This document shows, one piece after another, positions 3,865-31,816 of a stretch of 34,749 nucleotides of DNA; within the stretch, counting starts at the first letter, position 1, and every line of letters starts with the position of its first letter. The notes beneath the pieces were generated by a model that had not been told where the DNA came from, ran no database searches, and saw nothing but the letters and a program-made list of their open reading frames with translations. This stretch comes from Planctomycetota bacterium (GTDB lineage: Bacteria; Planctomycetota; Planctomycetia; Pirellulales; Pirellulaceae): positions 1 to 34,749 of the forward strand of contig VGZN01000004.1 in assembly GCA_016872635.1 (NCBI GenBank), read 5' to 3'. Both the position numbers and the translations under genes were made by a program.

Positions 3865-4083
3865 GAGGTCGTTCCTTGCGGCTGAAAGGGCGTTAGACGC
3901 TGCAGCGAACGAGCAAGTATGCGCTCGAAACCTGAAGAGACGATGAAGCAGCCCCAATTTCCCGAAGGAACTTCGAATTTACGGAGGTCAGAAGGGGGGG
4001 CGGACTTGCTTGGCTGGCCGCTCTCGGTCCATTTGCGTATGTTGATTGAACAGGGATTAGCACTGTTTTTTCGACAATCCTCA

Positions 4084-4100
4084 GGGCAGGGCAGGGGGGG
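4084..4100 (+). repeat. KOPS-like repeat GGGCAGGGCAGGGGGGG (2 overlapping GGGNAGGG)
   Basis: direct reading; intergenic, 18 nt upstream of the ECF sigma start codon. Confidence 0.9.
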
Positions 4101-4664: not shown

Positions 4665-4733
4665 TAGCTGGGATGCTTGAAGTGGCTGTTTACAGTTCGG
4701 ATCTTATTAGGTGATTGTGAATTGTTTAGGGTG

Positions 4734-5510
4734 ATGACTCCTATGGCACCATTAGAACTGCAACGATTGATTGATGGTGAGATGACTCACGCGCAGCGTG
4801 CTGACTTGCTGCATCGATTGGGTAACGATACCGAGCAATGGAAAACGCTGGCGATGTCCCTGCTCGAGGAGCAGCAATGGAGTCGTGAGGTTGCGCAAGT
4901 TGTAAGGCCCGAGAGCGTTCCAGCACCAATGCAACCATACTCCGAGTCACCGACGGTGATGTTGGCGCATCCTACCCCTTCGCTTGTTCGAGATGAAGGT
5001 ACCAACAACCACGGTTCCGGTACCTCGTCAGGTATGTCGGCAGGGACGAGGCGATCTTGGAACTGGGTGAGTGCTCTCGCTGCAGGTGCATTGTTCACGG
5101 TTGGCCTCGCGGGAGGTTCGTGGATGCGATCGTTGCAGAGTGCCGGGGAAGGGCAGGGGGGGGCGATGACGCAAGTACCTGTCGTCGATGGAAATAGCCA
5201 GGTTGCCGTGAATGCGCCCAAGGGCCTTTCAGACTACAAATCTTCGTGGGAAGCAGCGGCTCCGTTGCGCATGGTCGTTTCGGGGCTCGATTCCAAAAAA
5301 TCAGAGATCCCTTTGGTGAATGCCAAAGACATCGATCCGAATCTGCTGATGGCGAGCGAGGCGTTGGAGATGGCCAAACTCAACAAACAACTTCGTCGGC
5401 AAGGATACGAGATGGATGTAAGGCCTCAGTACTATTCCGGAAACTTGGGAGATGGCCGAAAGGTTGTCGTGCCCATTCATAACGTATCGCTCAAGCCCTA
5501 CGGGTTGTAG
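4734..5510 (+). CDS. anti-sigma-factor-like single-pass membrane protein downstream of the ECF sigma gene
   Basis: N-terminal 'LQRLIDGEMTHAQRADLLHRL', then one TM segment (WNWVSALAAGALFTVGLAGGSW); same strand and adjacent to sigma gene; start chosen at MTPMAPLELQ. Confidence 0.6.
   Translation: MTPMAPLELQRLIDGEMTHAQRADLLHRLGNDTEQWKTLAMSLLEEQQWSREVAQVVRPESVPAPMQPYSESPTVMLAHPTPSLVRDEGTNNHGSGTSSGMSAGTRRSWNWVSALAAGALFTVGLAGGSWMRSLQSAGEGQGGAMTQVPVVDGNSQVAVNAPKGLSDYKSSWEAAAPLRMVVSGLDSKKSEIPLVNAKDIDPNLLMASEALEMAKLNKQLRRQGYEMDVRPQYYSGNLGDGRKVVVPIHNVSLKPYGL
5146..5163 (+). repeat. KOPS-like repeat GGGAAGGGCAGGGGGGGG (2 GGGNAGGG)
   Basis: direct reading; inside CDS, encodes ..GEGQGG.. Confidence 0.9.
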
Positions 5511-11831: not shown

Positions 11832-14063
11832 TTATTCGACTTCAGACGTAACAGTATCGAGCACTCGGAGCTCAAAGTGCTCCAGCAATTTTCCCAAAGG
11901 TAAGATCAACGCGCGATAGAGATTCCACGAAGCGAACGCCCAGGGAATTGCCAAGAAGAGTGCCACTGGGACGGACGCCATCGCTGGAACGAACCGACTG
12001 ATCACAAACTCGATCCCGAGCGGGGCGAGGCTCAAGCAAAACATCATAGGTATCAAGGTTGAGAGGAGCAACGTTGATACAACCGCCTTCCAATTGAACC
12101 GCTTGGGCTGAATCCCGCCAGCTGGTAATCCAAACGGGGCTAGGATCGACTGGAGGTTTGTTACCAGAAAGCAAACGGGGATGAAGGTGATAATCGCTAG
12201 CGGGGAGTAGAGAAGTTTATCCAACGGGATGCGCCAATAGATACCAATCCCTATGCATGTCAGTCCGGCGATCGCGAATACAGGGATGCCATACGCGACG
12301 TTACGCCCGTTCAAGATCTGATGCCTGGGAATCGGTGAGAGGACCCACGCTCGGAAGCCCGAGCGATCGAATCCAAACAAGTTTCCTAAGAAGCCCGAAG
12401 ATGTGTAAAGGCAGAATCCCGCAATTCCCAATACGAGAAATGTATCCAAAAACGGATTGGCCGATGATCTCCAGTAACTCATGAAGAACAACAGAATGAT
12501 CGGCTGGATGAAGGGACCCATCAATTGCAGTTTCATCTCAGGAGCTCGCCAAATCGAAATCCAGGTTTGCGCCACAATTGCGGACGATGTTTCATCCAAC
12601 ATTGGGAACGATCGTTCCATCCACGTGCTGCTCCCCTTGGTCCCTTCCTGCAATCCTGCAGTGGAAATTGCTTGGTTAGTCGCCGTAGGGGATGTCGATT
12701 CCGCTTTTGGTTGGGAGAGTCCGGGAGCCGAACCGAATCCATGCTGGTAGTACCGCAATGTGGTGGCATAGTTGCGTCGTAGCGATACCGCTGATATCGC
12801 CAGCATCCCAGGAACCAAGAAAAGCGTTTTCCAAGGTGATTTTGGAATCGACTCGGCACATGCGGCAAACCAAAAAGGAGGCAGGGTGATATCAAGCCAA
12901 CTCAAGGCCTGATCCAGCACACCCGTGAACTCAGTAAACGACTCCGCGCGAAATGGCGCGGCTGATTCTTGCAATGAAGTATCCGTTTCGGGTGGTGTGT
13001 CGACTGGCAACGCTTTCGATGAGGAGGATGCAGTCGGTACCTCAGCCATGGAATCGGTAGCCATGGAATTTGCAGGGATCGGCGCTTCGGGGCTGGCCTC
13101 AGGGGTGTCTAGTTCTATGGGTGTGTCCGTAACGATGCTGTTGTCCGTAGTGCTTTCTTCGATCTTGCTGTCATGGAGATTCCCTTCGATCGATGGTATG
13201 GGAGCAATTGAGGGCAACGTACTATCTGGCAGTACTGTTGGTGGCGGAGGCAGAACACCGTGGGGGTTGGGCTTTGTGATGCGAGCAACGTACGAGGTGA
13301 GTTGACTGATGGAAATAGCAACGCCTGCCATCGTGATGCCAACGATAAATGGCAAGAAGAGCATTACCATTCGCCTACGTTTTGGATTGGCAACCCACGC
13401 TGAAAGGATACTTCGAAGGTGCGATGTCAGCGCCGTGATCATCACTAAATATGCCAGTAATGGGATAGCGATCAGCAGCACCGAGGGGCCGTGCGAGATC
13501 GATCCCCCGAGGATCAAGCCGATGCAGATGCACGTGAAGTAGATAAAGGGCAAGTTTCCAAGAGAGAGGATATGATTGAGGGAAAAGACATGGCTGGGGG
13601 AAATTGGCAAATGCATGATCCGGTCCATGCTGACTCCATCGCTCCGGGTCAGTTCGGTCGAGATTTCGATGATCCAAAACAAAAGAAAGACGAATACGAG
13701 ACCGTTCCAAACGTAGCTCGTGTAGTTCATCGAACTCGCGTTCCGATAGAGAAAGAATCCCCCGATGGAACCGATGAGAACAGCGAAGAGAGTCCCCATA
13801 CTGATCGCCGAATAGAACACAAAAACGACGACCTTGCCCAGGATCGATTCCCGCGACCAGCGATTCGCTACGACTCGCGATTGAAGGAAAACAATGGCGC
13901 TGAAATGCTGAATGCAAGTGCGGATCCAACCGGATAACGAATCATTCTCGGCGTTGCTTCCCGTTCGCGAAGCATGTTCTCTCGAGGGCAGGGTAGGGGA
14001 GGGGGGTGCCGTCGCAGACAGGGCAGGGCGGGGCAGGGGGGTGCCGGCGGTCTCAGGAGTCAT
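11832..14063 (-). CDS. ABC transporter permease-like multi-pass membrane protein
   Basis: 743 aa, many TM segments; overlaps the downstream ATP-binding gene; about 110-residue Pro/Thr/Ser/Glu-rich insertion between TM blocks. Confidence 0.75.
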   Translation of the reverse strand: MTPETAGTPLPRPALSATAPPSPTLPSREHASRTGSNAENDSLSGWIRTCIQHFSAIVFLQSRVVANRWSRESILGKVVVFVFYSAISMGTLFAVLIGSIGGFFLYRNASSMNYTSYVWNGLVFVFLLFWIIEISTELTRSDGVSMDRIMHLPISPSHVFSLNHILSLGNLPFIYFTCICIGLILGGSISHGPSVLLIAIPLLAYLVMITALTSHLRSILSAWVANPKRRRMVMLFLPFIVGITMAGVAISISQLTSYVARITKPNPHGVLPPPPTVLPDSTLPSIAPIPSIEGNLHDSKIEESTTDNSIVTDTPIELDTPEASPEAPIPANSMATDSMAEVPTASSSSKALPVDTPPETDTSLQESAAPFRAESFTEFTGVLDQALSWLDITLPPFWFAACAESIPKSPWKTLFLVPGMLAISAVSLRRNYATTLRYYQHGFGSAPGLSQPKAESTSPTATNQAISTAGLQEGTKGSSTWMERSFPMLDETSSAIVAQTWISIWRAPEMKLQLMGPFIQPIILLFFMSYWRSSANPFLDTFLVLGIAGFCLYTSSGFLGNLFGFDRSGFRAWVLSPIPRHQILNGRNVAYGIPVFAIAGLTCIGIGIYWRIPLDKLLYSPLAIITFIPVCFLVTNLQSILAPFGLPAGGIQPKRFNWKAVVSTLLLSTLIPMMFCLSLAPLGIEFVISRFVPAMASVPVALFLAIPWAFASWNLYRALILPLGKLLEHFELRVLDTVTSEVE
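13986..14006 (+). repeat. KOPS-like cluster GGGCAGGGTAGGGGAGGGGGG (3 GGGNAGGG)
   Basis: direct reading; N-terminal codons of the permease. Confidence 0.9.
14021..14041 (+). repeat. KOPS-like cluster GGGCAGGGCGGGGCAGGGGGG (2 GGGNAGGG)
   Basis: direct reading; N-terminal codons of the permease. Confidence 0.9.
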
Positions 14064-15151: not shown

Positions 15152-18100
15152 TTGGCGAGGCGAAAGAAATCTCCAGCTTCCTACTCGCTAGACGCTTTGC
15201 GCGCCTTGCTGGAGCAGAACTTTTCGCTCCCGACATTTCGATCGGCTCACGGTGGGAGAGCATTCGGTGTAAGCGGAACAACCAATCGGGCTTCGGGCAA
15301 CCTCTCGGACCATGCTACCAACGGCGAATCTTCCGACGGCGAAGTTGCGTATACGGACAGCGATAGAAGCACGAAAGAATTGGTGCTCGCACGATCTGCA
15401 CACACTCGTGCGGAACAGTGGCAACCACGATTCCAGAAGATGATCGATCGCTTGCCATCGAATGTTTCCAAGGCTGGTAAGCCTCACGAAGACAGCATCG
15501 AGATTCTTGCGATTCATGCCTCCACGGTATTCGAAGCGGTGTACCGTACTCACTCCGAGGAGTGTCTAGCCGAGGAGTATCTGGTCTTTGTTTCGACCGA
15601 TTGGAATTTGGGTTGTGGTTGCTCATGCTCGATCAGTGCTGGACGAGGAAACTGTTTGCACACCGTCGCTTTGCTCCGTCGCGTGCATGAAGACCTAGCT
15701 TCGCCAGGGTCGCAGATCGCTCAAGCGGTTTCTCAAGGGAGGTTTTCGGATCAAGGTTTCCAAATGGTGGATTACATCCCCGATTCTGGCCTAGCACAAT
15801 TGGGCAGTCTGGATCGCTTGATCGCTTTACCCAAGTGGACGGAACACGCTGAATCGATTCGAGTCGACCGTATTCCTCACCGACGCACTCGGGTGGTGTG
15901 GCATATCGAGAGGCACTGGGGTATCGGTATTACGCCCTACATTCAAGTCGCTAACAAAAAGGGGAACGGTTGGAACCGCTCTAAAGAGATCGAGATCGCA
16001 GAACTTTGGAGCAGTGGAATTGAGTTGACCGAATCGGATAAACGCGTTCGAAAATGGATGGAGCATGAACTGGCAGGAAAGGATTTGCCGGTGATCGACA
16101 TCCTAGAAGCGCTCGTCGGACAACCTAATGTCTTTTTGAGCCATCAACACGAAGAGGTCGACGTCTCCAGAAGCGATGGCCGCATTGTTTTGCACGAGAT
16201 TCCGAAGGCTCGCAAGTTGCGACTTTGCTTTCGCGAGGAAACGCAATGGCCTGCGACCAATGTCTGTTTCCTCAACGACGGGATCGTAATGGTCTCTGAG
16301 ATCGCGCGAAAAATCGCGGTGGCACGATTCGATGCCAAGCAAACAGAGATGCTCTATGATCTACGACGGATTGCTGATATTCCGGCCAAGCATCGCGATG
16401 TGATTTTCCAAAAGATGGAGGCACTGCAAACATTTCTCAATGTTGAGTTGCCGTCGCGGGAAGAGCTTGCAATCGCGGAATTGGTTGCCCACCCGGTGAT
16501 GCTCCTCAAAAGCTTTCGAAATGGAGTCTTGGAGTATGGGTTGCGGGTCCGCGATGGCAAAGGCCGCCTGCATCGACCAGGCCAAGGCGTATTATTTCAG
16601 ATCGATCGAAGCGGGGATGCGCCGACGCAGTGGGTTCGCTCTGCTGCCAAAGAGATCCAGCTTTGCCAACACTGGCGAGATCGACTCGGAATCGAGGTCG
16701 CGAACTGGGATGGAGCCATCGAGGATTTTTTTGAAGCGATGACTCTGGTCAATTCGTTGCAGACGCCTACGAATTGTGCTGAGCCAAGTGAGGGAGAAGC
16801 TGCGCACAACCACATCGAGGTATTGTGGGATCCAAGAAGTGAATCGAAACCGCAACTGGCAGGAACGATCGGCATCGCAAACTTGAGAGTTTCCATCGAA
16901 CGGAAACGGGATTGGTTCCAATTGGCCGGTGAGTGTCTGTTGGGAGAGTCATCGATAGGGTTGCAGCAATTGCTGGATGCGATCGATGATAGCGAGTCTG
17001 TCCGGGTTGGTGCTGCAGCGGGGCAGGGCAGGGGGGGGAGCGATGGAAGCGAGTTTGTTCGTGTTGGGGATCTAGGTTGGGCGAAAATATCCACCGAGTT
17101 GCGGCGGAATTTGAAGCAGTTGCGAGAGTCGGTTCATAGCGAACGCAAGGCTTTGAAATTCGACCATTCCGCGGCGATCGAGATGCGAGCGCTGCAGCAA
17201 CGGCTTCCGATTCAAACCCACAAGTCGTGGGAAGAGTGCTTAGACCGAGTCGCTAGTGCTCAGGCCATGGAGCCAACGTTGCCCGGTGGGTTTGCAGCAT
17301 CGCTTCGCGACTACCAGTTCGAAGGTTATCGCTGGATGCGACGGTTGTGCGAATGGGGTGTGGGAGGTGTATTGGCCGATGACATGGGGCTCGGAAAAAC
17401 CGTGCAAACGCTCGGCGTTTTGCTCGACAGGGCAGGGGAGGGGCCATCGCTCGTCATCGCACCGACATCGGTCGGTTTTAATTGGATGCGGGAGACCGAA
17501 CGGTTTGCACCTGGGATCCAAGCTTTCCTCTATCGCGAAACCGATCGAGACGACTTTCTTCGTGGGCTGGGGCCTAACCAATTGGTGGTTGCAAGTTACG
17601 GATTGGCGTTGCGGGATATCGAGAAGCTCAAGCAAGTCGATTGGAATATTCTCGTTCTCGACGAAGCGCAAGCGATCAAGAACGGAAGGAGCAAAACCTC
17701 GAAAGCGATTGCCGATCTTGGGTCCAAATGGAAAGTTGCTCTGACGGGGACTCCGGTTGAAAACCACCTCGGTGAACTGTGGAGTTTGTTCCATACCGTT
17801 GCGCCAGGTGTTTTCGGCTCATGGGATCAGTTTCGGATTCGTTTTGCGAGTCCTATCGAACGAGATAACGATCCTGAGCGGCGAGATGCCCTTCGGAAAC
17901 GCTTGATGCCGTTTGTATTACGGAGGACGAAAAAAGAAGTGCTTCGCGATTTACCATTGCGTACGGATATGAATCTGATGGTCGAGTTGAGTCCTGCAGA
18001 ACGCAAGCGATACGATGCGGTTCGTGCGACTGCGATCATCGAAGCCGAGACCATCGCCAAATCCTCAGAGGATCAGGAGCAACGCTTCCGAATTTTGGCG

Positions 18101-18685
18101 ATACTGACCCGATTGCGTCAGTTGGCATGCCATCCTCGATTGGTGGATGAAACCTGGAGTGAGTCCTCGGCAAAATTGGATCAACTCAAAGAGACGCTAC
18201 TGCAACTCCGAGAGGAGGGTCATCGCGTTTTGGTTTTCAGCCAATTTGTCCAGCACTTGCAATTGATTCGAGCCATGCTCGATCAGGAGGGGATCACCTA
18301 CCAGTACCTCGATGGCTCAACCCCTGCGAAAGCAAGGCAGAGCGAAGTGGATCGTTTCCAGAACGGAGATGCCGATGTGTTTTTGATTTCGCTCAAGGCA
18401 GGAGGGACCGGATTGAACTTGACCGCAGCCGACTATGTCATTCACATGGATCCATGGTGGAATCCGGCCGTGGAGGATCAAGCCACCGATCGTGCGCACC
18501 GCATTGGGCAGACCAAGCCGGTCATGGTCTACCGCATCATCGCGCAGAATACGATCGAGGAAGAGATTCTCAAGCTTCATGAAACCAAACGGGATTTGAT
18601 CGCAGGGGTGCTGGATGGAGCCGAAAGTGCGGCCAAACTAACCACAGCGGACTTGATCGCGATCATCCGAGGTGAGCATTCTTAG
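15152..18685 (+). CDS. SNF2/SWI2-family DEAD/DEAH helicase with N-terminal SWIM-type zinc finger
   Basis: 'CGCSCSISAGRGNCLHTVALL' (CxCxnCxH), 'LADDMGLGKTVQTL', 'LDEAQAIKN', 'LTGTPVENHLGELWSLF', 'SLKAGGTGLNLTAADYVIHMDPWWNPAVEDQATDRAHRIGQ'; TTG start in ORF track. Confidence 0.93.
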   Translation: MARRKKSPASYSLDALRALLEQNFSLPTFRSAHGGRAFGVSGTTNRASGNLSDHATNGESSDGEVAYTDSDRSTKELVLARSAHTRAEQWQPRFQKMIDRLPSNVSKAGKPHEDSIEILAIHASTVFEAVYRTHSEECLAEEYLVFVSTDWNLGCGCSCSISAGRGNCLHTVALLRRVHEDLASPGSQIAQAVSQGRFSDQGFQMVDYIPDSGLAQLGSLDRLIALPKWTEHAESIRVDRIPHRRTRVVWHIERHWGIGITPYIQVANKKGNGWNRSKEIEIAELWSSGIELTESDKRVRKWMEHELAGKDLPVIDILEALVGQPNVFLSHQHEEVDVSRSDGRIVLHEIPKARKLRLCFREETQWPATNVCFLNDGIVMVSEIARKIAVARFDAKQTEMLYDLRRIADIPAKHRDVIFQKMEALQTFLNVELPSREELAIAELVAHPVMLLKSFRNGVLEYGLRVRDGKGRLHRPGQGVLFQIDRSGDAPTQWVRSAAKEIQLCQHWRDRLGIEVANWDGAIEDFFEAMTLVNSLQTPTNCAEPSEGEAAHNHIEVLWDPRSESKPQLAGTIGIANLRVSIERKRDWFQLAGECLLGESSIGLQQLLDAIDDSESVRVGAAAGQGRGGSDGSEFVRVGDLGWAKISTELRRNLKQLRESVHSERKALKFDHSAAIEMRALQQRLPIQTHKSWEECLDRVASAQAMEPTLPGGFAASLRDYQFEGYRWMRRLCEWGVGGVLADDMGLGKTVQTLGVLLDRAGEGPSLVIAPTSVGFNWMRETERFAPGIQAFLYRETDRDDFLRGLGPNQLVVASYGLALRDIEKLKQVDWNILVLDEAQAIKNGRSKTSKAIADLGSKWKVALTGTPVENHLGELWSLFHTVAPGVFGSWDQFRIRFASPIERDNDPERRDALRKRLMPFVLRRTKKEVLRDLPLRTDMNLMVELSPAERKRYDAVRATAIIEAETIAKSSEDQEQRFRILAILTRLRQLACHPRLVDETWSESSAKLDQLKETLLQLREEGHRVLVFSQFVQHLQLIRAMLDQEGITYQYLDGSTPAKARQSEVDRFQNGDADVFLISLKAGGTGLNLTAADYVIHMDPWWNPAVEDQATDRAHRIGQTKPVMVYRIIAQNTIEEEILKLHETKRDLIAGVLDGAESAAKLTTADLIAIIRGEHS
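17021..17038 (+). repeat. KOPS-like repeat GGGCAGGGCAGGGGGGGG (2 GGGNAGGG)
   Basis: direct reading; inside the helicase, encodes AGQGRGGS. Confidence 0.9.
17430..17443 (+). repeat. KOPS-like repeat GGGCAGGGGAGGGG (2 GGGNAGGG)
   Basis: direct reading; inside the helicase, encodes RAGEGP. Confidence 0.9.
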
Positions 18686-18794: not shown

Positions 18795-18804
18795 GGGCAG
18801 GGGG
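18795..18804 (+). repeat. KOPS-like GGGCAGGGGG
   Basis: direct reading; between convergent genes. Confidence 0.9.
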
Positions 18805-19531: not shown

Positions 19532-19542
19532 GGGTAGGGGGG
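19532..19542 (+). repeat. KOPS-like GGGTAGGGGGG
   Basis: direct reading; immediately upstream of the 18805-19530 (-) start codon. Confidence 0.85.
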
Positions 19543-19555
19543 CTTCAAGGAATTA

Positions 19556-19566
19556 GGGCAGGGGGG
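19556..19566 (+). repeat. KOPS-like GGGCAGGGGGG, last + strand site left of dif
   Basis: direct reading; intergenic. Confidence 0.9.
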
Positions 19567-21065: not shown

Positions 21066-21093
21066 ACGTCCGATAATGTTTCTTATGTTCGGT
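21066..21093 (+). other. dif: candidate dif site (XerC/XerD recombination site): ACGTCCGATAA TGTTTC TTATGTTCGGT
   Basis: 11-6-11 layout; right arm TTATGTTCGGT matches 8/11 of the E. coli XerD arm TTATGTTAAAT; left arm ACGTCCGATAA matches 9/11 of the Firmicutes-type arm ACTTCCTATAA; intergenic; sits where GGGNAGGG polarity switches. Confidence 0.75.
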
Positions 21094-21402: not shown

Positions 21403-22464
21403 TTGCTTCCGTCAAACCTTAACGGCCTCAGCCCAGGCGACCCTAGAGCCGGTGAGCTTCTTGCGGGGGATCTTCCAACTGGGGATCTTCCAACTGGGGG
21501 GCCGCCTGACGGCCGAAATACCACTCGGCCGTTGGGACCCCATTTGCGCCATCGCGCAAGGCGGCTACTTATCATCGTCTTTACCCTTATCGGTATTTGG
21601 GGATGCGGATGGCTGGTCCGTTTCTTTGCTCGCTCCGACGAAGTCGCTCGCTTGGCTTCGATGATCCTGTTCGCTCCCGCGCCCATCGTGGCTATTTGGT
21701 TTGGTTGGCGCACGCGGTTGCGATTCGAAGACTGGCTCGTCGCTTCGCTATCAATTCTTGTTGGGTTTCTCGTCTGGAACAGCGTCATGCTCCAGGGTCT
21801 CAACGATCCTGTGCAGTTTCGGGAGGTCGTCTCCAAGAATGCCGTGCATTGGTTCCTGTTCTTGATAGTTGGTACTGCAACAGCCCGATCGATACAGTGG
21901 GCGTCTCGAATCGGAATATGGTCTATGGTCAGTTGCGATGACGAGCCAGAGACCAAGGCGTTATCGGTGATTCGGCTGATGGGGATAACGGCGACAGTAG
22001 CCGTGTTTGCGGTTTCCTATCGCGCGATCTTTCATGCTTCGCTCGAAGAAGCCAAATCATGGATTTATATGGGAGCACCAAGTGGACCGATGCATTGGTA
22101 CTCGTGGTTTCCACTCCGATCCAAGATCTGGGTTTCGGGAGCCATCGGTGGAGTGTTGATTGGATTTCATTGGTACGCGGTCGTCGTAATCCTTCGGTTG
22201 GGTTCGTACCGCATGCCGGGTCTCGTTCTCTGGAGCATTGCAGTGGCGGGCCTTCGATGGAGTGCGAACCAAATCTACTGGGGCGAGATACCGATCTGGA
22301 TCGATCTACCGATTACGATCGATCTCGACTTCCGACCTTCGCAAATCGCAATCCAAATGCTCGTCGAAGGAACCTTGCAAACCCTGATCACGTGCGTATC
22401 GATTTATGGATTGCGCGGTTGTGGTTTCCGGATCGGGAAAAGGGGCAGGGCCCCCCTGCCCTAG
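21403..22464 (+). CDS. multi-pass membrane protein of unknown function
   Basis: 353-aa ORF with repeated TM segments; start codon uncertain because the N-terminus is Gly/Pro repetitive. Confidence 0.65.
   Translation: MLPSNLNGLSPGDPRAGELLAGDLPTGDLPTGGPPDGRNTTRPLGPHLRHRARRLLIIVFTLIGIWGCGWLVRFFARSDEVARLASMILFAPAPIVAIWFGWRTRLRFEDWLVASLSILVGFLVWNSVMLQGLNDPVQFREVVSKNAVHWFLFLIVGTATARSIQWASRIGIWSMVSCDDEPETKALSVIRLMGITATVAVFAVSYRAIFHASLEEAKSWIYMGAPSGPMHWYSWFPLRSKIWVSGAIGGVLIGFHWYAVVVILRLGSYRMPGLVLWSIAVAGLRWSANQIYWGEIPIWIDLPITIDLDFRPSQIAIQMLVEGTLQTLITCVSIYGLRGCGFRIGKRGRAPLP
21466..21499 (+). repeat. 15-bp tandem repeat ggggatcttccaact, about 2.3 copies
   Basis: seen directly; encodes GDLPTGDLPTG near the N-terminus of the 21403 ORF. 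Confidence 0.9.
22443..22461. repeat. inverted pair GGGCAGGG-CCC-CCCTGCCC (KOPS-like in both orientations)
   Basis: direct reading; at the 3' end of the 21403-22464 CDS. Confidence 0.9.
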
Positions 22465-24690: not shown

Positions 24691-24706
24691 CCCCCCTGCC
24701 CTGCCC
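24691..24706 (-). repeat. KOPS-like GGGCAGGGCAGGGGGG on - strand (2 GGGNAGGG)
   Basis: + strand reads CCCCCCTGCCCTGCCC; upstream of the kinase gene. Confidence 0.9.
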
Positions 24707-25053
24707 TGCATCGGGGACGCCGAGGCAAGTGAAACGGATGCCGATTGTGCCTCGGTATGCCGTTTCGATTTGAACTGTCGTTTCGCCTCGGAACATCGAG
24801 TCGAACACAGAAAGTTCGGGTCGAACACGGGTTGGTCGTGGTACAAACCCGGGGGATGCATCTTCTGTACTATAGGCAAAACCCGCAAAATCCGAAAGGA
24901 TTGACCTTTCCAGCGACTCCCCTACATTCTCTCGCAATGCCACGTGGTTGGGCGAGTTCAGTCCCGGGGCGTAACGCGAAAAAAGCATCGCAACTCGAGC
25001 GTTGAGTGGCGCAAGCCGTATTCAAAACCTTCTATTTCCAAGGAATCTATACC

Positions 25054-25629: not shown

Positions 25630-25640
25630 CCCCCCTGCCC
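25630..25640 (-). repeat. KOPS-like GGGCAGGGGGG on - strand
   Basis: + strand reads CCCCCCTGCCC; between tpx and the coiled-coil gene. Confidence 0.9.
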
Positions 25641-27704: not shown

Positions 27705-30299
27705 TTATTCCACAGCGGGCCCCACCGAAAAGCATTCCGCGTCGCTAGAGAGGTAATCCCAAGGGATCCTCGAGATCGCGCCTGATTGTTCGAGCATGAG
27801 TACCGTATTTCGGATCGTTGCCTCAAAATTGCTGCGTGCTATGCGATCACCAGCAGCGATGCTGCGCCAATCGATGACCAGGAAACGTATCTCTGATTTC
27901 GATTGATCGAGCCATTTCGAATGGTTTCGAAGCAGGAGTTCGAGCGATGCAAGTTCGCTGAGTCCGACCTCCAGGGTCGGAACAGTCAGAAAAAATGTGT
28001 CGGTGGTTCCGACCACCAGCCAGCGACTCGATGATCGAAATTGTGTGGGGAGAACGCGAGATCCGTCATGCCTGTTGATCCAATCGGTATAGATTGGGAA
28101 GGTCGATAAACCAGTCGATAAACGAATTGACGGAGGCGACGAGAGGTCTTTCGGATTCACGGCCCCCCCCTGCCCTGCCCTTTCGAGGGATGGCTCGCGT
28201 CCGGCGTCGTTGCTTTCTGTACTGCCCTCTAGGGCATCCCCCCTGCCCTCCCCTGCCCCGGGTTGATCCGGAACCGAGTGCCGGCTCAGGAGTGTAGTTT
28301 GGATATTGACCTGGGGGTTCGCGATAGTAGTAGGGATCAGTTGATCGATGGCGACCAGTAAACGAGGGTCTGCCGTGGGCCACGCCGCTAATGCGATGAC
28401 GCTCCACGCGAGCGAGATCAAGGCAAGTGGGAAGATCAAATAACCGCCCGATCTTTCGCGAAGCCACTGGATAGCTTGCGCTGCCGGCCAAGCTAACATC
28501 GGGGTTGCTACCACCCAATCGCGATCAAGGTGGGTGGTGAATATCCACCAGAGAAGGATCCATACCAACCATGCCATGGAGGAAAATCGAATCTCACGAT
28601 CCCGATACCCAGCCACGGCACCGATCGCGGCGAGCGGGATCAGCAACAGTCCATGCGCCATGGAGTTCCAAAGAATGCTGTTGAATGCATCGGCCAATTC
28701 GCTGAGCGACGCGCCGAGCATGGCGATGTTCGAGTGTGCAATCGCCAACGTTGGAAGGAAATCGTGGGATAGCGGGGAACCGTGCAGAAAAGCTCGAAGT
28801 TGCCATGGTATTGCAGCTGCGACGAATACCGTGAGCATCGCCAATCGTGCGATAACGGATCGACTCGCCACGGAGTTGCGATCGTTCCAATTACATTTTC
28901 GATCGCGCGAATTGAAGTTGATCATGCGATAAAGAAGGATGCTGCCTAGGAAGATACCAAGGAGTGATTGGTAGCTAAGTGCTCCCGCAGCAATGCACCA
29001 TGAACTGAGCTTGGGGATGGGCTTTTCATTAGGGAATTGGATCAAAACCATCGATGCGGTAATCCAAAGCATTAGCCCCCCTGCCCTGCCCCCGAGTCGG
29101 ACCAGTTCGTGCATCCCCGGGTGAGCTATGAGCAAAAAAGCGGTCAGGGCGGCGGCTAATGCACCGAATCGCCAGCGGATATTCGAAGCGATCATGAGAA
29201 TAGCGATCAGCCATAGCGACGCATGGAGGACTTGTCCGGAGAGCCATGCGCACGTGAGATGGCGAAGCGTCGCTTCGGGTGATAGGCTGGGCCGTATAAC
29301 CTCAAGAAACGATGTCATTGCCAGGGCCGGCATCGTGTTGCCTTGAGGGCCGTTTGCCGCACGATGGAGATCGAACCAACCGATCGAGTTATCGAGGTAG
29401 TATTTTTTCGTTGAGAGCATCTCGATCTCTCGGACGTCTGCATCGTAGCTAGGTAAGCATGAGCCGAGTACTGCAATCGTTGCGAGCCATACGGCACCGA
29501 CGACTGAAAGACCGATCAATCGACGACTCCAAGAGGATGCGAATGAGGAATCGCTTTCGATAGAACGTGGTGTTGCGAGATAGAACAACAAGTACCATCG
29601 CGACGTCAGAGCTACGATGACTGTCGATAGGGCAAGGGGCAATAAGAAGCGGGGGCCGAAAATCCAGCCGTTCGCTAGGGTCAGTAGCGATAGGATTGCA
29701 TGGCCGATCGCGATCGAAAACCCGCGAGTGGCCATTGGACCATTCCAGTGGTCGAGCGATTCCCTGGTAGCGATGGGGTGGCCTATCCACCACGACGCCG
29801 CAAGCCATCCTGACGCGAGGAGAAGGATCGGAACTCGGTCCATCCATGAGGCGTAGAGAAGGCCGCCGGTCCATTGTTTCCAAAGATCGGACAGGCTAGC
29901 GACATCGACGAGCCAGAGTTCCAGTCGTGAGGTTTGTAGGAATTCTCCGTAGGGGTCGGCCAGCGGCATGGAAGGAATTAAGAGCATTGCCGCCGAGTAG
30001 CCGACCAAGAGCAGTCCGGCTGCAACGATTGCGATCCATTTTCCTAATTGTGGCTGATTTTTTGGCACTTGAGAGTGGGCCGAGCAAGCGAAATCGTGGC
30101 TGAGAACTAAACTCACGGTGTACCGTCGGTCTGCGGCGGGGGCCAGCGTTGGTCCCCCAGTCGGACGTAGATTGGACGTATATCGAACGTAGAATCGTAC
30201 GAAACGATGCTGGCGGTGTTTTGCGATACTCCTTACGGTATCGTAGAAATCGTTTGCAAGCCAACAAGATTCCCTGCTATTGTTTCCCTTATGAACCAA
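27705..30299 (-). CDS. large multi-pass membrane protein (glycosyltransferase-like topology), unknown function
   Basis: 864-aa ORF, many TM segments and C-terminal soluble domain; start uncertain. Confidence 0.65.
28163..28180 (-). repeat. KOPS-like GGGCAGGGCAGGGGGGGG on - strand (2 GGGNAGGG)
   Basis: + strand reads CCCCCCCCTGCCCTGCCC; inside CDS, encodes ..RAGQGGAV.. Confidence 0.9.
28238..28258 (-). repeat. KOPS-like GGGCAGGGGAGGGCAGGGGGG on - strand (3 GGGNAGGG)
   Basis: + strand reads CCCCCCTGCCCTCCCCTGCCC; inside CDS, encodes ..GAGEGRGDA.. Confidence 0.9.
29076..29093 (-). repeat. KOPS-like GGGGGCAGGGCAGGGGGG on - strand (2 GGGNAGGG)
   Basis: + strand reads CCCCCCTGCCCTGCCCCC; inside CDS, encodes ..LGGRAGGLM.. 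Confidence 0.9.
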
Positions 30300-31411: not shown

Positions 31412-31816
31412 ATGAAGATTCGAGAGGATCGCGACTGGGAAACTCGAGTGCTGTCTGTGATGGAGTCTCGCAGTCGTGCATTGGGATGGCTCTCGATGGC
31501 GTCTATCCTAGGTGCACTTATCTATGTGCTCGTGGCTTCGTTGCAGAGTGTACGCAAGCACGAATTGGGGGCCCCATTCGTGCTTGATTTGAATCGCGCG
31601 AGTGAGGCCGAGCTCAATTTGTTGCCAGGCGTTGGTCCGAAAATGGTGCGATCGATTTTGGATCACCGTCGATCTCGAGGCGGATTTGATAGCGTTGAAA
31701 ATCTTATGGAGATTCCGGGGATCAAGGAGGGACGCTTGAGGCAGTTGGCCCCGTATGTGCGCGTCGGACAAAGTTCCGCGTCGGGAAACATCAACGAGCC
31801 GGCCACGAAAAAGTGA
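31412..31816 (+). CDS. ComEA-like helix-hairpin-helix protein
   Basis: one TM segment, then 'DLNRASEAELNLLPGVGPKMVRSILDHRRSRGGFDSVENLMEIPGIKEGRLRQL'. Confidence 0.85.
   Translation: MKIREDRDWETRVLSVMESRSRALGWLSMASILGALIYVLVASLQSVRKHELGAPFVLDLNRASEAELNLLPGVGPKMVRSILDHRRSRGGFDSVENLMEIPGIKEGRLRQLAPYVRVGQSSASGNINEPATKK

Follow-up and report, generated by a model that had tools for sequence, protein, structure and literature searches.

The window, a stretch of 34,749 nucleotides, is an entire contig of a fragmented 6.08 Mb genome (G000), the nearest named relatives of whose host are uncultured Pirellula-type freshwater MAGs. A gene on its minus strand (27705–30299) encodes a polytopic membrane protein of 864 amino acids and carries seven in-frame copies of GGGNAGGG in three clusters of KOPS-like repeats. 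The cluster at 28163–28180 (minus strand; CCCCCCCCTGCCCTGCCC) consists of two overlapping copies of GGGCAGGG, a KOPS octamer, and encodes RAGQGG; that at 28238–28258 (minus strand; CCCCCCTGCCCTCCCCTGCCC) consists of three overlapping copies of GGGNAGGG and encodes GAGEGRG. The two sites, which a preliminary description of this DNA had placed in this gene, are thus tandem overlapping GGGCAGGG/GGGNAGGG arrays read in frame with the ORF. The third cluster (29076–29093, minus strand) encodes GGRAGG in a loop between predicted helices. The 21-mer at 28238–28258 was identical in the relatives G010 and G074, and the cluster at 28163–28180 was kept in G010 and, save for one Gly to Trp change, in G074. 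As called, the ORF runs into the beginning of the divergently oriented DHDPS gene (30207–30299), and its true start is probably further downstream.

Structural prediction of the 864-aa protein with AlphaFold2 gave a model that was poor overall (mean pLDDT 48). Residues ~653–736, encoded at 28089–28340 on the minus strand, were the least confident part of the model and lacked secondary structure; they separate the last membrane helix from a C-terminal alpha/beta domain. This predicted disordered linker agrees with the low-complexity stretch that had been described between a membrane region and a C-terminal domain. The protein had no Pfam match at 1e-3, although one of 14 orthologues weakly matched PMT_2, and a Foldseek search with the model returned no hit at E ≤ 0.001, its top match being the mannosyltransferase ALG12 (E 0.15). 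These matches give only a hint of a possible glycosyltransferase role.

Further clusters of the repeat were found on both sides of a 28-bp site, ACGTCCGATAATGTTTCTTATGTTCGGT (21066–21093, plus strand), which we identified as dif by sequence identity across relatives and which lies between the last left-arm and the first right-arm copies. All left-arm clusters are on the plus strand. Two of them are intergenic (4083–4100 and 18795–18802), and two are antisense to genes: 13986–14043, near the N terminus of gene 11832–14063, and 19532–19563, in the N-terminal part of a YdjM-like ORF. The cluster at 5146–5163 encodes GEGQGG after a hydrophobic segment of an anti-sigma-like protein (gene 4677–5510). 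In an SNF2 helicase gene (15152–18685), the cluster at 17021–17038 encodes AGQGRGG (AGQGRGGS in the preliminary description) within a 12-aa insertion, and a pair at 17430–17442 encodes DRAGEGP in the conserved SNF2 core, where the length is unchanged. The similar cases listed earlier at 5146–5163, 17021–17038 and 29076–29093 were therefore all real. On the right arm, the copies are on the minus strand and comprise, besides those in the 864-aa gene, the first copy (22451–22461), a cluster near the N terminus of a protein kinase gene (24691–24708), and an intergenic site (25630–25640). The first right-arm copy is faced by a plus-strand copy at 22443–22450; this facing pair (22443–22461), whose members are 3 bp apart, lies at the end of gene 21403–22464 and is kept in G010 and G074. 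No KOPS were found in the UvrB and DHDPS genes, which lie on the dif side in the window. Downstream of the DHDPS gene is a strong inverted repeat, AGCACGAATTGGGGGCCCCATTCGTGCT (31557–31584).

The octamer GGGCAGGG occurred 108 times in the 6.08 Mb genome, with 22 copies in the window and 86 in the other 6.04 Mb. The window holds 0.57% of the bases, so that ~0.6 copies were expected in this pattern search. The reversed control pattern occurred 99 times genome-wide. All 12 genomic copies of the 10-mer AGGGCAGGGG were inside the window, six on the plus strand left of 19.6 kb and six on the minus strand right of 22.4 kb. This confinement raised the suspicion of a foreign origin for the contig, which was dismissed on finding a syntenic block with the same cluster in close relatives; contamination was also ruled out by G105, the one complete genome of the genus, where KOPS are likewise locally concentrated.

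A dif site is a 28-bp sequence, normally single per chromosome and located at the polarity switch, and ACGTCCGATAATGTTTCTTATGTTCGGT has these properties. Among the 27 genomes of the genus set, most of which are fragmented MAGs, dif was found in 19. The 28 positions were identical in G010, G074, G105, and G060, the last of another genus; 27 of 28 matched in G053 and G097 (also of other genera), and 26 of 28 in G121. In relatives, dif lies near the switch in KOPS orientation, between colicin-V-like and accA genes where both are present. G140 had two copies, each at the end of a different contig, which is the pattern expected from a break in the assembly. When the window was scored against E. coli- and B. 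subtilis-type dif sequences, the best match was 15 of 22. Compared with the genus, dif is inverted relative to the flanking colicin-V-like and accA genes in G060, G053, and G097 (L107, L105, and L104). The highly conserved accA itself carries a GGGNAGGG site at residue 199 in G105 and G127.

At 17 dif loci in the genus, GGGCAGGG was oriented toward dif in 251 cases and away from it in 13, nearly all of them within 20 kb. The density of toward-dif copies per 10 kb was 9.0, 6.0, 1.6, 2.3, and 0 in successive 5-kb bins from dif, with the near-zero density beyond 20 kb resting on few long contigs. When octamers within 15 kb of dif were ranked in 12 genus genomes, GGGCAGGG was the most polarised (206:7), and rearranged G-rich octamers were balanced (GGGACGGG, 3:2; GGGCTGGG, 5:8; GGGATGGG, 7:10). 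Octamers of the GAAGTTTG type were also strongly one-sided in dif zones (42:2), possibly as a repeat within one gene. KOPS orientation toward dif was also seen in other genera (G060, G053, and G097), and in the complete genome G083, again of another genus, AGGGCAGGG was polarised chromosome-wide with two switch points. No genome-wide leading-strand bias of KOPS was found in the complete G105, where copies beyond the dif cluster were few and of mixed orientation. Such a bias is a usual feature of KOPS that would not be required for action near dif; yet its absence is a reason to call the sequences KOPS-like. As far as sequence comparison can tell, the preliminary reading of the motif as a segregation signal is upheld by the shared octamer and its convergence on dif.

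The candidate reader of the motif is present as well. An FtsK gamma domain was found in 23 of the 27 genus genomes and aligned with FtsK chains 2ve8/2ve9 (2.8e-9). In each of the ten genus sequences seen (FtsK loci L185–L194, including L190), its recognition helix read GYGRAARL(I/V)D; the E. coli counterpart is GYNRAARIIE and that of P. aeruginosa is GYNRAARMIE. Two of the changed positions (Asn to Gly and Glu to Asp) are ones that we take to be KOPS contacts.

We compared the 864-aa gene with its orthologues, whose neighbouring genes (MotA/ExbB-like and DHDPS) are mostly conserved. The KOPS-bearing copies, in which position and ancestry are confounded since they form one weakly supported clade (68/41), contained seven (G000), eight (G010), eight (G074), six (G121), and eight (G128) copies of GGGNAGGG, and the other nine contained none. 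The G074 gene is split over two contigs, with all eight sites in the longer part. The gene shares a contig with dif in G000, G010, G074, and G121, in each of which it is transcribed toward dif, and we infer a dif-side position in G128. For five KOPS-free copies (G131, G132, G139, G126, and G140), dif is on a separate contig, and a location off dif in these fragmented genomes frequently means only that; in the genomes of the other four (G141, G137, G138, and G133), dif was not found. The linker peptides are GAGEGRG and RAGQGG in the G000 clade and EQGRG or RAGEGRG in G121 and G128, both of which have additional private KOPS sites in the gene. At the 29076 site, copies with KOPS read GGRAGG or GGGAGEGG, and KOPS-free copies have LGRSEVLTG-type sequences of nearly equal length.

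The proposal that the motif creates a Gly-rich linker held only in part. Between conserved anchors, the linker measured 121–125 aa in the clade of G000, G010, and G074, 58–60 aa in G121 and G128, and 55–77 aa in the KOPS-free copies. Orthologues lacking the motif had been expected to lack the linker, but they retain it, and the linker is therefore independent of the motif. The long form was confined to the G000/G010/G074 clade, where KOPS explain just part of the extra length. The Gly-rich peptides, by contrast, tracked the motif: they were missing where it was missing in the three window genes and in the heme/HEAT-type gene described below, and in these four genes we found no orthologue far from dif that encoded the same Gly-rich peptide with different codons.

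The anti-sigma-like gene carries KOPS in G000, G010, and G074, and none of 17 other orthologues does. In the SNF2 helicase, the 12-aa insertion with KOPS was restricted to the G000 clade and absent from other orthologues; G121, whose contig is syntenic with the dif block, has KOPS in the same loop without the insertion. The core pair differs from KOPS-free sequences by codon choice and one or two residues (DRAGEGP vs DRASQGP or DRATEGP). Ten other SNF2 orthologues had no sense-strand KOPS. The SNF2 gene of G128, which is dif-side by synteny, had no KOPS, showing that dif proximity permits KOPS but does not force one into every gene.

In another part of the genus, an unrelated heme/HEAT-type gene at ~7–11 kb from dif provided the reciprocal case. 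Each of 11 copies had four to nine KOPS, and seven of these are on the dif contig (G131, G140, G126, G132, G139, G125, and G135). Orthologues without KOPS, both from a single clade, were found in G105, whose single-contig genome places the gene 1.22 Mb away from dif, and in G127, on another contig than dif. Depending on the species, the middle site yields AGQGG or GQGRG; the copies in G105 and G127 lack it. At the third site, RAGQGGF stands opposite QAEQGNF without a change in length, and the G139 copy (L169) has an in-frame RAGQGGPEQGGPEQGGPGQAGSGQAG expansion there. On the opposite arm, the same genome has 12 KOPS sites in ~140 bp about 1.9 kb from dif (L170). An amylase-like gene has antisense KOPS encoding RPALPF in G105, G125, and G127, and the oppositely placed G121 copy has RRAPLF without KOPS there and a sense-strand site elsewhere. 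Independent moves of genes between positions appear to be few, probably two.

These data bear on whether the repeats arise at the level of DNA or of protein. If the proteins needed Gly-rich flexible linkers, G-rich DNA would follow from Gly and Arg codons; indeed, sense KOPS encode Gly, Ala, Gln, Glu, and Arg, and several sites lie in loops or in the predicted disordered linker. However, redrawing synonymous codons of the 864-aa gene with the protein fixed yielded a mean of 0.33 copies of GGGNAGGG vs seven observed, a count reached in none of 5000 draws; the corresponding values were 0.51 vs four for the helicase (4 of 5000 draws) and, more weakly, 0.21 vs two for the short anti-sigma-like gene (85 of 5000). 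Codon bias as a source of the counts was likewise discarded, as the redraws did not reproduce them. The Arg codon used in KOPS is AGG, although it is rare here (7%). Between G000 and G010, all 15 KOPS codons were identical, compared with 376 of 578 (65%) codons of conserved residues elsewhere in the 864-aa gene. A comparison of reading frames, which the preliminary description had recommended, was similarly informative: 141 KOPS clusters in 12 dif zones comprised 53 sense, 37 antisense, and 51 non-coding clusters, with all frames used, so that the DNA is constant and the peptide variable. With genes called by a simple longest-ORF rule, ~126 of the 141 would be coding by chance and ~15 non-coding; the non-coding excess indicates that coding DNA is disfavoured, though it holds most copies, as would follow if the coding sites were a compromise. 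Since the same DNA occurs in all frames, antisense, and between genes, pointing at dif, and the peptide is missing from unlinked orthologues, we regard selection on the proteins as extremely unlikely to be its source.

Three alternatives act at the DNA level. A mobile or self-expanding simple repeat could have spread near the terminus and acquired one orientation per side by chance, and the 5-nt internal period of the arrays, the 12-site array of G139, and its in-frame RAGQGGPEQGGPEQGGPGQAGSGQAG expansion would fit such an origin. We saw no element ends or target duplications, however, and all genomes examined showed an orientation that follows dif. In conserved protein, many sites reflect codon choice or substitution at constant length, and unchanged-length sites such as 17430 in the SNF2 core refute expansion as the general origin. 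A simple repeat is thus very improbable as the main cause, although slippage may supply mutations on which selection for KOPS acts. The longer arrays (GGGCAGGGCAGGGGGG) also fit a G-quadruplex pattern on one strand, and the G-runs might act at the terminus by folding rather than by orienting FtsK. Against this, G4 patterns without GGGNAGGG were rare and unpolarised (two toward dif and five away), and single copies of AGGGCAGGG, too short for a G4, are polarised along the whole G083 chromosome, which leaves G4 folding barely credible. Finally, leading-strand G bias near the terminus might yield G-runs without specific selection, and GC skew is indeed positive left of dif in the window. Within the window, the skew keeps its sign across dif, whereas KOPS orientation switches there, and composition-matched octamers are unpolarised, in contrast to the 206:7 of GGGCAGGG; we give this reading practically no credence. 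The G-quadruplex and skew readings were accordingly rejected on the octamer and G4 polarity counts and the unswitched skew.

We consider it highly probable that the repeats are planctomycete KOPS in a dif zone and that the Gly-rich stretch of the 27705–30299 gene is a by-product of position-linked selection on DNA. KOPS would here be concentrated in a dif activation zone that extends about 10–20 kb out from dif in both directions. Most likely, FtsK uses its gamma domain to load on KOPS, moves toward dif from either flank, and activates recombination by Xer at that site; this binding and activation, and selection as the cause of the pattern, are what we infer from the arrangement of the sites. 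Selection for FtsK guidance near dif would be strong enough to place KOPS in genes at tolerant positions. They lie inside genes because the zone is mostly coding and their density in the 10 kb next to dif is ~6–9 per 10 kb. Coding KOPS would arise mainly in tolerant loops and linkers, whether by codon choice, by substitution of amino acids, or by insertion in frame, and depending on the frame would encode Gly-rich peptides in sense (RAGQGG, GQGRG, or GRAGG) and, for example, RPALPF in antisense. The comparisons support the view that the Gly peptides follow the DNA motif and that the motif follows dif proximity, not the protein. KOPS would rarely cause loops; they appear to be written into loops that tolerate them, as at 29076 and 17430, where the length is unchanged.

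A wider reading, which we put forward tentatively and at slightly less than even probability, is that in this genus a chromosome-wide KOPS polarity has collapsed to a dense dif zone of ~10–20 kb with an altered gamma helix, such that genes entering the zone gain KOPS peptides, in part through repeats expanded in frame, and genes leaving it lose them. If so, part of a protein's sequence would be set by its chromosomal address. The natural comparisons described here, in which the place of a gene on the chromosome predicts, via a segregation signal, amino acids of the encoded protein, offer a direct way to test what DNA-level signals cost proteins. Before Gly-rich 'linkers' of terminus-side genes are read as protein features, they should be checked for KOPS. 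In addition, dif and KOPS-like sites are now placed in a phylum for which an earlier survey predicted dif in zero of one Planctomycetes (PMC3025954). A literature search, which covered few subscription journals, found no paper on KOPS in Planctomycetes or on KOPS altering proteins.

Several known systems resemble parts of this arrangement. Rickettsia palindromic elements are repeats that add in-frame peptides to unrelated proteins, as KOPS do here, but they are larger and palindromic and have no orientation relative to dif. The DNA uptake sequences of Haemophilus and Neisseria are likewise intragenic DNA signals that, according to the account of Findlay and Redfield (2009) in PMC7811141, are under-represented in strongly constrained coding sequence; they accumulate genome-wide, whereas the KOPS studied here are local, oriented, and tied to dif. 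Architecture imparting sequences (AIMS) are also strand-biased octamers under selection that rises toward the terminus (PMC5993296), but they were treated as a constraint on rearrangement and gene acquisition, whereas here the proteins of resident genes vary with position. A fourth parallel is the KOPS/FtsK-XerCD-dif system of E. coli, which shares the octamer (GGGNAGGG), the polarity toward dif, the rise toward dif, the FtsK gamma domain, and the scale of the zone: E. coli KOPS converge within a dif activation zone that extends ~10 kb either way (PMC5357621). It differs in density, which in the present zone is far above the cited one motif per 13 kb (PMC5357621). The genus further departs from E. 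coli in its tandem overlapping arrays, its changed gamma recognition helix, and the lack of polarised copies elsewhere in its one complete genome, and insertions and peptide changes are documented here against orthologues outside the zone. The kind of signal thus appears to be a known one, KOPS; judged from these sequence comparisons, what would be new is an unusually dense local zone with protein effects that can be traced via gene position.
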